NCBI GenBank assembly: GCA_030765645.1
Contig: JAVCCE010000032.1
Location: forward strand, 1-46,413
Reading direction: 5' to 3'
DNA length: 46,413 nt
Source of the DNA: Candidatus Hinthialibacter antarcticus
GTDB taxonomy: Bacteria > Hinthialibacterota > Hinthialibacteria > Hinthialibacterales > Hinthialibacteraceae
Positions 22,299-31,357 of the stretch are shown in pieces; the stretch's first letter is position 1; each line of letters opens with the position of its first letter. The notes beneath the pieces are model-generated. The model did no database searches. It had not been told where the DNA came from and saw only the letters and a list, made by a program, of their open reading frames with translations. A program made the position numbers and the translations under genes.

Positions 22299-23075
22299 CT
22301 ATTTTTTCTTTTTATACACCTTCACATAATCAACAACGAACTCATCGGGGAACACCGCATTTTTGAGTTCTTCCATTTTGGAGGGAAGTTCCATGCTGAG
22401 AATCATATATTCTTCGATATGTGAAAGCCCTTTGGTCACTTCATAAAATTTCAACCCATCAATAAAGAACACATATTTTTCCGGCGTCCATTCGAGGGCG
22501 AAGGTATGAAACCCATCGCTTACGCCTTTGAGATAGCTCTGCATTCCACGGGTGGTTTGCTGGTTCGGCCCATACGCCCAATGGACGTTATGTGAAACGA
22601 TGTCGGTTCCCAGTTTTTTGAAGAACTCCATGATGTCGATTTCGGCGCCGTAGGTCGCGGGGTCTTCGCCTTTGGCGATATCAGTGGATTGGATCCAAAA
22701 CGCCGCCCACACGCCTGCTGACTTTTGTAACTGAGCGCGGCACTCGAAATAGCCGTACTTGGTCATGAACTTGCCCTGCGTCCCGACCGCGCTGATGTAA
22801 ATCTTGTCGTCTTGTTCGTAGGCCAATAATTTGAGAAAGCCGTCTTCGACTTTCACCGCGTCAGACGTGACATAGCCGACTGCTCGAGGGCCAATTCCCC
22901 GCACTGCCCATTTTTCGGCATCCAGTTGATCGCCGTTAAATTCATCCTGCCAGAATAATTCGTAGCCCATTGATTCAGGCGTATAGACCGTATCAGTCAT
23001 CGGTCCCTGGGCGGGGCGTTGGGCAAAGGTTGGTACAGCAATTGAAATAAATAATAAAAAGATAGACAACCTCAT
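22299..23075 (-). CDS. Secreted GH16 family glycoside hydrolase
   Basis: Beta-glucanase/agarase/carrageenase-type enzyme of 258 residues. The signal peptide MRLSIFLLFISIAVPTFAQ is followed by FWQDEFNGDQLDAEKW and YGYFECRAQLQ. The catalytic signature EIDIME has E145 (nucleophile), D147 and E150 (acid/base). The C-terminus has DYVKVYKKKK. It therefore cuts an external beta-linked polysaccharide such as laminarin, lichenan, agar or carrageenan; the exact substrate cannot be read. ATG at 23073-23075 has GGAG six bases upstream. It leads the GH16-aldo/keto reductase pair. Confidence 0.93.
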   Translation of the reverse strand: MRLSIFLLFISIAVPTFAQRPAQGPMTDTVYTPESMGYELFWQDEFNGDQLDAEKWAVRGIGPRAVGYVTSDAVKVEDGFLKLLAYEQDDKIYISAVGTQGKFMTKYGYFECRAQLQKSAGVWAAFWIQSTDIAKGEDPATYGAEIDIMEFFKKLGTDIVSHNVHWAYGPNQQTTRGMQSYLKGVSDGFHTFALEWTPEKYVFFIDGLKFYEVTKGLSHIEEYMILSMELPSKMEELKNAVFPDEFVVDYVKVYKKKK

Positions 23076-23145
23076 ATTAAACTCCAATCTGAATAAAATT
23101 CTTATAAATTGACTTCACAACAATAGTTGATATTAGGCTGTGAAT

Positions 23146-23225
23146 GGCATGTATACAACTCTGCTCGCTTCGGTGCGGGCTTTCAAGCCCTCCTCACAGG
23201 CGCTCCCAGAGTTACAACCATGTCC
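23146..23225 (-). repeat. 80-bp palindromic repeat, copy 1
   Basis: Reverse complement of the element at 30807-30886. Both are 80 bases long. They share CTCTGGGAGCGCCTGTG, TGAAAGCCCGCAC and GAAGCGAGCA almost base for base. The ends are imperfect inverted repeats (GGCATG.../...CATGTCC). An internal hairpin GGGCT-TGAA-AGCCC is perfect here. It lies upstream of the GH16 gene, in a region without genes. Confidence 0.8.
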
Positions 23226-29650: not shown

Positions 29651-30718
29651 ATGACGATTGACTTACAACAGATAACAGACCTGGGCCTTCGCGGGGACAT
29701 GGTTCCCCGCGAATTGTCTCAGGCTTTACTCGAAGACGAGGGGCCCGACGTCTTGCCGATGGCGCAAGCAGCAGGCCAAGTGCGAATGGCGACCTTTGGT
29801 CGCAAGGTCAAACTGCACCAGATCAACAACATCCAGAACGGGCTGTGTCCCGAAGACTGCGGTTACTGCGGACAGTCAAAAATTTCCGATGCGCCGCTCA
29901 ATAAATATCCAATTAAGTCCGAAGACGAAATCGTCGAAGAAGCCCACGCCGCCAAAGCGCGCGGGGCGTACCGCTACTGCATGGTCGCCAGTGGGCGCGG
30001 CCCGACGGATAACCGTATCGACCAGCTCGCGCACACCGTTAAACGTATCAACCAGGAAGTCGGCATCCGCACCTGCCTGTCTGTCGGCATCGTCTCAAAA
30101 AAACATGCGCAGGTTCTTCGCGACGCGGGCTTGGACCGCCTCAACCACAACTTAAACACCAGCGCCAATCACACGCCTAACATCGTCACCACCCATACCT
30201 ATGACGACCGCATTCAAACCCTGCGCGACGCGAAATCGTGCGGGTTGGAAATTTGCAGCGGCATCATCACTGGAATGGGCGAAAGCAACCAGGATATTCT
30301 TGACGTTGCCTATGAACTGCGCGACTTGGACGCGCGTTCGATTCCCATTAATTTTTTAATCCCGATTCCAGGCAATCCCCTGTATGACTTTAACCAACTC
30401 TCGCCAATTCGGTGCCTGAAAATTTTGTGCGTGTTTCGCTTTATCAATCCGACTGCGGAAATCCGCATCGGCGGCGGGCGCGAAGGCCACTTGCGCAGCC
30501 TGCAAGCGCTGGCGCTGTATCCCGCCAACTCACTATTCATTGAAGGCTACCTGGTGACGCGCGGCGACAAAGTCGACAAAACCATTCAAATGATCACAGA
30601 CGCAGGGTTTGAAATAGACGGTGATATTGACGTAGACGCAGACATCAGCAGCGCCGAAAAATACCAGATTGATCAAGACCCCAATATTTTAAATCCCAAA
30701 ACGACAGTTACTGGCTAA
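29651..30718 (+). CDS. bioB: Biotin synthase
   Basis: Radical SAM enzyme that inserts sulfur into dethiobiotin. 355 residues. The SAM cluster cysteines are C66, C70 and C73 in CPEDCGYCGQS. The [2Fe-2S] ligands C110 (RYCMVASGR), C142 (RTCLSV), C202 (ICSGIITGMGE) and R272 (AEIRIGGGRE) are all present, so it should be active. An extra acidic C-terminal tail of about 25 residues (DGDIDVDADISS) is beyond the usual end. No other bio gene is in the window. It is translationally close to the FucI-like gene, an unusual partner. Confidence 0.97.
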   Translation: MTIDLQQITDLGLRGDMVPRELSQALLEDEGPDVLPMAQAAGQVRMATFGRKVKLHQINNIQNGLCPEDCGYCGQSKISDAPLNKYPIKSEDEIVEEAHAAKARGAYRYCMVASGRGPTDNRIDQLAHTVKRINQEVGIRTCLSVGIVSKKHAQVLRDAGLDRLNHNLNTSANHTPNIVTTHTYDDRIQTLRDAKSCGLEICSGIITGMGESNQDILDVAYELRDLDARSIPINFLIPIPGNPLYDFNQLSPIRCLKILCVFRFINPTAEIRIGGGREGHLRSLQALALYPANSLFIEGYLVTRGDKVDKTIQMITDAGFEIDGDIDVDADISSAEKYQIDQDPNILNPKTTVTG

Positions 30719-30740
30719 TTGTTCGTATATAATGAAGCAG

Positions 30741-30919
30741 AAGCCATCTCATAAACATTCACTTTGGAGGGATATTACGTCCCTTTAAAATACATAAGCC
30801 AATTCAGGCATGGGTGCATCTCTGGGAGCGCCTGTGCGAAGTGGCCTGAAAGCCCGCACTGAAGCGAGCAAAGATGTACCCATGCCATCCATACTCGATA
30901 ATTTTTTTTGAGATGGCTT
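30741..30919 (+). repeat. Split terminator-like inverted repeat enclosing the 80-bp element
   Basis: AAGCCATCTCA (30741-30751) and TGAGATGGCTT (30909-30919) are perfect 11-base complements. The right arm is preceded by T8 and followed by TTAAAGG. Together they would make a normal terminator hairpin for bioB, but 157 bases lie between them, including the whole 80-bp palindromic element. A small hairpin AGGGA/TCCCT (30768-30784) followed by TTAAAA also lies inside. Confidence 0.55.
30807..30886 (+). repeat. 80-bp palindromic repeat, copy 2
   Basis: GGCATGGGTGCATCT at the left end and AGATGTACCCATGCC at the right end are complementary at 14 of 15 positions. The middle CTGGGAGCGCCTGTG ... CTGAAAGCCCGCAC ... 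GAAGCGAGCA is shared with the inverted copy at 23146-23225. No open reading frame lies inside, so any movement would need enzymes in trans. Confidence 0.85.
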
Positions 30920-30934
30920 TTAAAGGAGCCGGTC

Positions 30935-31357
30935 ATGAGCGAACGATGCATCTGGGGAAAGATAGTCCGCATTCTGGATGAGCAGCGTATTTTGGTCAAC
31001 ATTGGCTTTGAACATGGCGTTGAGCCTGGAGACCGTTTTCATATCTTAGAGATTGGCGATGAAATTCAAGACCCGGAAAGCAACCAAGCGCTTGGTCAAC
31101 TACAACTGGTCAAAGCCGAAGTCGCGGCGGTGCACGTGCAAGAAAAACTGACGCTGATGATGCCGCTCAGTGAACAGCAAATTCGCCCCGATTCTGTTTT
31201 GTCGGCAACCCTGGCCAACACGTCATCGCTCAGCCACGCGCCGATTGAATCCAACCGGGGCCGTCTGAATGTGAAGCCAAACCAGATTCATGGACGCGAG
31301 ATGATCTCCGCGATTGGGACGGGCGATCCGGTTCGTTCCGTCTTCACGAAAAAATAG
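30935..31357 (+). CDS. Small uncharacterised protein, possible OB/FlgT-C-like fold
   Basis: 140 residues, soluble. The segment WGKIVRILDEQRILVNIGFE with HGVEPGDRFHILE is a beta-rich pattern like the small C-terminal barrel of FlgT and related proteins (V-x-I-N-x-G-x-x-x-G-V-x-x-G-D). The C-terminus is rich in Asn and Gly without a clear fold. AGGAG lies seven bases before the ATG, which excludes a longer frame beginning inside the repeat region. No partner gene identifies its role. Confidence 0.65.
   Translation: MSERCIWGKIVRILDEQRILVNIGFEHGVEPGDRFHILEIGDEIQDPESNQALGQLQLVKAEVAAVHVQEKLTLMMPLSEQQIRPDSVLSATLANTSSLSHAPIESNRGRLNVKPNQIHGREMISAIGTGDPVRSVFTKK

Follow-up and report, generated by a model that had tools for sequence, protein, structure and literature searches.

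The window, namely the whole 46,413-nt stretch of contig JAVCCE010000032.1 of Candidatus Hinthialibacter antarcticus that was analysed here, contains two copies of an 80-bp hairpin in opposite orientation, as the first-pass annotation had described (Table 1). Both copies are palindromes in their own right, and they closely resemble each other, with a net score of 66 over 80 bp in their mutual alignment (matches minus gap costs). Folded as RNA, the copy at 30807 reaches -45.2 kcal/mol (z -4.7) and the decayed copy at 23146 -33.5 kcal/mol (z -2.7). The same annotation held that pairing at the tip is kept between the copies. This does not apply to the copy at 30807, in which a T replaces G at column 36 and one pair of the consensus is lost and uncompensated, leaving a tip stem of 3 bp instead of 4 bp. 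Moreover, the 80-bp coordinates originally given cover the hairpin only, while the repeated unit at this site spans 30740-30920. Since both window copies are located just upstream of a gene start, a role as a 5'-UTR regulator was considered and ruled out, as no strand bias exists over 140 copies. A plasmid origin was also discarded, the neighbouring region having no close match among plasmids.

Table 1. Hairpin copies, terminal repeats and genes of the window, followed by features of the same genome at other loci.
Feature	Position	Strand	Remarks
80-bp hairpin, first copy	30807..30886	+	17-bp outer stem, conserved core, tip stem, CTGAAA loop
Outer stem, 5' arm	30807..30823	+	pairs with 30870-30886; covarying
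Outer stem, 3' arm	30870..30886	+	covarying
Nearly invariant core AGCGCCTGTGC-N4-GGGCCTGAAAGCCCGCACTGAAGCGA	30827..30867	+	alignment columns 21-61
80-bp hairpin, second copy	23146..23225	-	opposite strand to first copy
Type B MITE around first copy	30740..30920	+	181 bp; genome-wide terminal-repeat scan; class BB
Left terminal inverted repeat GAAGCCATCTCATAA	30740..30754	+	1 mismatch to consensus GAAGCCATCTCAAAA
Right terminal inverted repeat AAAGCCATCTCAAAA, then TA	30906..30920	-	1 mismatch
Left terminal repeat of second copy GAAAACATCTCAAAA	23278..23292	-	2 mismatches; decayed type B, class 'B-'; coordinates from sequence
Possible right terminal repeat of second copy	23107..23123	-	badly decayed, ~9/15 matches; by eye, uncertain
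Radical-SAM/BATS protein gene (biotin-synthase-like)	29651..30718	+	upstream neighbour of first copy
Downstream neighbour gene of first copy	30935..31357	+	ATG 15 bp beyond MITE end; FlgT_C match sub-threshold only
Glycosyl hydrolase family 16 gene	22299..23075	-	downstream of second copy
RAYT genes, two intact and one broken (L011)	L009 1330-1887; L010 1354-1905; L011 1435-1901
Hairpins with CCAATGTCATTGACTTAAG-ended insert	G000 C11:221060, C35:128, C40:39866, C55:5483/5668, C73:114707/114881		L101, L181, L195, L167, L190

A dispersed hairpin family and its carriers

The core pattern GCCTGTGC-N2..7-GGCCTGAAAGCCCGCAC has 127 exact matches in the 5.15-Mb genome and none in a reversed control, and a covariance model trained on 32 copies recovers at least 150 dispersed hairpins, so that the existence of only two copies, which the first-pass annotation had named as refuting its reading, does not apply. 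Thus, the hairpin represents a large repeat family and not a local pair. A local segmental duplication, suggested by the fact that the 46-kb window has just two copies, is refuted by this genome-wide count and has a practically negligible probability of having produced the window pair, since copies occur on most contigs and the genes next to the 23146 and 30807 sites are different. Numerous contig ends (C3, C7, C12, C16, C20, C26, C47, C69, and others) are located within these elements or within the ISL3 element described below and, therefore, the true copy numbers are higher; in turn, the hairpin elements help to account for the assembly breaks.

The flanks of the hairpin copies are themselves repeated, and the hairpin is usually the centre of a larger gene-less miniature element with terminal inverted repeats located ~35-100 bp outside it. 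Class statistics refer to 393-413 kb of genome stretches chosen for containing matches, which hold 161 non-redundant hairpins, 136 of them at full length. Type A ends occur on both sides of 44 hairpins and type B ends on both sides of 23; 5 have mixed ends, 44 one-sided ends and 24 no detected ends, and 21 lie at a contig or block edge. The hairpin therefore occurs in three ways, namely on its own, within an older MITE (type B), and within a younger MITE (type A).

The consensus unit of type B measures ~186 bp, with inverted ends GAAGCCATCTCAAAA (TIR-B) and flanks that are often TA; TIR-B has 63 matches in the genome versus 1 in the reversed control. Both window copies belong to this type, the one at 30807 within a 181-bp element and the one at 23146 in a decayed unit with one recognisable end. 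No type B element devoid of any hairpin was found. A TIR-B pair also surrounds a different palindrome, GGGGAGGGCGA..CGCCCTCCCC, at L062 1499-1663 (C52:33283), which is a member of the family that brackets the broken RAYT gene in L011. Type A elements end in GGTTCATCCGG on the left and CGGAAGAACC on the right (GGTTC[A/T]TCCG), and TIR-A has 83 matches in the genome versus 0 in the control. Their lengths are mostly 232-237 or 262-264 bp, within a range of 151-264 bp, and they possess terminal inverted repeats and no coding capacity, as ISL3-derived MITEs do. Type A is heterogeneous and, thus, may have more than one origin. Among the 24 end-less copies, about 10 genuinely represent solo hairpins, their flanks being unrelated, and constitute a distinct older form, and the rest are mostly decayed MITEs. 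Tandem and mixed forms (L058, L061, L074) show that rearrangement is still going on, and internal deletions are present in L049 and L063.

The target-site duplications that the first-pass annotation had proposed to look for are found in type A, in which 16 of the 44 elements are flanked by perfect 8-mers (shuffled mean 0.5, maximum 3). The mean identity of the flanking 8-mers is 0.77, versus 0.45 after shuffling (maximum 0.54), and the signal is specific to 8 bp, with spill-over only at 7 and 9. ISL3 elements duplicate 8 bp at their target. In type B, the flanking dinucleotides are identical in 6 of 23 elements, which equals shuffled pairings; TA is a putative target, yet it is common beside the ends, and its reading as a target duplication is suggestive only.

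Thirteen class relatives, all from other genera, contain no match to the hairpin consensus or to the covariance model. Moreover, the exact hairpin core is absent from ~85,000 other genomes of a public collection and from viral contigs, and no exact TIR-B occurs in the class relatives. The family seems to be confined to this lineage, the sampled relatives sharing the class and not the genus.

Stem covariation and the invariant core

In an alignment of 32 distinct copies, 93% of the cells are paired in the named structure, and pairing drops to 30-49% in a control with sliding partners. Changes on both sides of a pair affect 41 cells compared with 13.5 in shuffled data (0/500 shuffles as high), all of them in the outer stem, where 8 of 17 pairs show both-sided changes (e.g., columns 4/77 and 13/68). 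In contrast, the core (columns 21-61, ~40 nt) hardly varies outside its four-base spacer. In nine solo copies, the palindrome reaches into locus-specific flanks, with 22 bp in total and none of 20,000 shuffles attaining this value. The solo hairpins at C40:50302, C33:27694, C1:30272, and C31:15559 illustrate the extent, their palindrome running 3-5 bp into the flanking DNA. Two processes could account for this extension, insertion into pre-existing palindromes or growth of the stem by template switching.

The latter process makes the arms of imperfect inverted repeats more alike (PMC3820800, PMC7202029), and it offers an account of the compensatory stem changes as quasi-palindrome template-switch repair during replication, with neither selection nor recognition by a transposase. 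The precedent in such repeats and the flank extension of the solo copies speak for this reading, to which we assign a serious though less than even chance; however, it explains neither the invariant unpaired core nor the dispersal, and insertion into existing palindromes explains the extension equally.

Since template switching can lengthen or alter stems, covariation alone is no proof of RNA function. A functional RNA or a terminator, kept by selection at many genes and merely delivered by the MITEs, would nevertheless agree with the strong covariation of the outer stem and the near invariance of the core, as well as with the position of the copies. According to a simple coding-potential gene caller, none of the 140 hairpins with usable flanks lies inside a called gene, and convergent gene pairs (38) exceed divergent ones (20). 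However, the hairpin shows no strand preference relative to co-directional genes (35 vs 28), and gene starts bear no consistent relation to the hairpin position. Moreover, Rfam covariance models detect only a tRNA above gathering score in the window, which led to the rejection of a known RNA family for the hairpin; the 13 class relatives have no copy, covariation can also result from DNA-level processes, and the likeness of the young copies is explained by their recent age. Selection for an RNA function is thus regarded as very unlikely.

A different kind of selected property is conceivable, in which the hairpin is a portable unit whose invariant core is recognised by a transposase or a host protein and helps any carrier. 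This is considered distinctly unlikely; if true, unrelated systems would have acquired the hairpin one after another, namely the IS5-type, the ISL3-type, and a solo route.

Candidate source transposases and RAYT genes

Coding sequences for C-termini of ISL3-family transposases are located at three contig ends of this genome (Pfam E 5.5e-17). The last ~50 bp of the ISL3 gene together with its terminus are nearly identical to the outer left ~50 bp of type A, and in most copies checked the ISL3 3' end aligns with the type A left end over 48-60 bp with few mismatches. Type A therefore derives from the ISL3 element of this genome. The assembly holds no intact ISL3 copy, only C-termini at contig ends with the other IS end absent; the left end of a full element would read GGTTCTTCCGTAAATTGGATAC.

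For type B, a domain search of the own genome detected neither a PF01609 nor a PF13340 transposase, and no IS5-type transposase with matching ends is present among its results. The class relative G012 carries an intact-looking IS5-family element of 937 bp with DUF4096 and DDE_Tnp_1 reading frames (L215 922-1858), in which the type B terminal repeats find an IS5-family counterpart: its ends GAAATCATCTCAAAA and GACACTATCTCAAAA match TIR-B at 13/15 and 12/15 positions. An IS5-type source is, on account of these ends, the best guess for type B, and the G012 element is possibly close, as far as its termini indicate, to the lost source.

The search suggested in the first-pass annotation for a transposase or RAYT with matching ends thus succeeded in one half, through the end of the resident ISL3 transposase gene that matches type A, and failed in the other, since none of the three RAYT genes has ends matching the hairpin. 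Each of the three loci has a palindrome family of its own on both sides, unlike the hairpin and unlike those at the other two, which amounts to three possible REP systems in the genome. GTAG REPs are, by definition, palindromes of 20-40 bp with a terminal GT(A/G)G head (PMC2817692, PMC3733652), and the hairpin, with ends of the form GGC[N]TGG..CC[N]GCC and a length of 80 bp, does not conform to this. The claim that the element is unrelated to classic REP sequences is therefore supported insofar as the tested REP features (head motif, size, and RAYT bracketing) are lacking.

The hairpin could still be a genuine REP that a RAYT (a Y1 HUH transposase) mobilised in single-stranded form and that entered MITEs secondarily. 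The genome has two intact RAYT genes and a broken one, the latter followed at a short distance by two solo hairpins in L011, on one side only, and solo copies combine the absence of a direct target duplication with an invariant core and a variable paired stem. Against this, the palindromes that bracket the RAYT genes, the broken one included, belong to other families, and neither a GTAG nor a CGTC head terminates the hairpin, whose 80 bp contrast with the usual 20-40 bp. Moreover, most copies carry DDE-type terminal repeats, with duplications in type A. Dispersal by a RAYT is, on balance, unlikely.

Order of events and comparison with known systems

Mean hairpin identity rises from 0.888 in solo copies to 0.918 in type B and 0.947 in type A, and full-unit identity is 0.765 in type B versus 0.88-0.90 in type A, so that divergence follows the order solo > B > A. 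Fossil TIR-B sequences persist inside the right arm of type A in L092 and L097, plus five copies called by motif. Since some type A elements keep these type B ends inside, an IS5-type MITE was the first carrier and an ISL3-type MITE the second. Overall, the hairpin is, with high probability, a REP-like sequence that was dispersed for the most part in the middle of non-autonomous DDE-type MITEs, of which type B is the older and type A the younger. The solo hairpin would have come first and would then have been captured by a type B element, which an IS5-family transposase, since lost or missing from the assembly, may have moved in trans. At least part of type A is type B that was either enclosed in ISL3 termini or given them as new ends, and the resident ISL3 transposase may have moved, or may still move, type A in trans. 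The first-pass description as a non-autonomous mobile palindrome of MITE or REP-like nature was right about mobile DNA, given the copy number, the type A duplications, and the ISL3 end match, but the mobile unit is usually larger and the 80-bp palindrome is its cargo or core.

Bacterial MITEs derived from ISL3 and IS5 elements resemble the present ones in being short, gene-less, intergenic, and of high copy number, with terminal inverted repeats shared with an IS, and the 8-bp duplication of type A is that of ISL3. However, a single conserved 80-bp hairpin here forms the body under two unrelated sets of ends and also occurs alone. Likewise, REPs and RAYT-linked palindromes (PMC2817692, PMC3733652) are intergenic, GC-rich imperfect palindromes with a variable paired outer stem, in genomes with several palindrome families and several RAYTs, whereas the present hairpin has 80 bp, no GTAG/CGTC head at its end, and no bracketed RAYT, and resides mostly in DDE-type MITEs. 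REPINs (PMC3116915) are also short non-autonomous palindromic mobile DNA, but they consist of paired inverted REPs with a RAYT link, while there is one hairpin per unit and DDE-type ends here. Among the precedents found, the one closest to a REP-like palindrome housed in a larger repeat is GTAG-15 of Anabaena variabilis (PMC3733652), a REP family whose dimers are regularly embedded in a larger repeated palindrome; unlike the present case, in which two IS families supply the ends, that outer palindrome is unassigned to an IS and not found without REPs. Searches of the literature under composite, chimeric or nested MITEs returned nothing relevant.

The unusual part is, thus, that one hairpin is common to two kinds of IS-derived MITE and also exists on its own. 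A single genome would thereby preserve all stages from solo repeat to IS5-type MITE to ISL3-type MITE, with fossil ends still readable, and it would become possible to test directly where the interiors of bacterial MITEs come from and how REP-like palindromes overlap with MITEs.

The hairpin also appears as a site of insertion. Five copies contain another repeat, with ends CCAATGTCATTGACTTAAG, at one and the same position within the hairpin. This repeat occurs there in either orientation and is accompanied by what looks like an 8-bp duplication (CTTCAGTG/CACTGAAG), as though the hairpin were its target.
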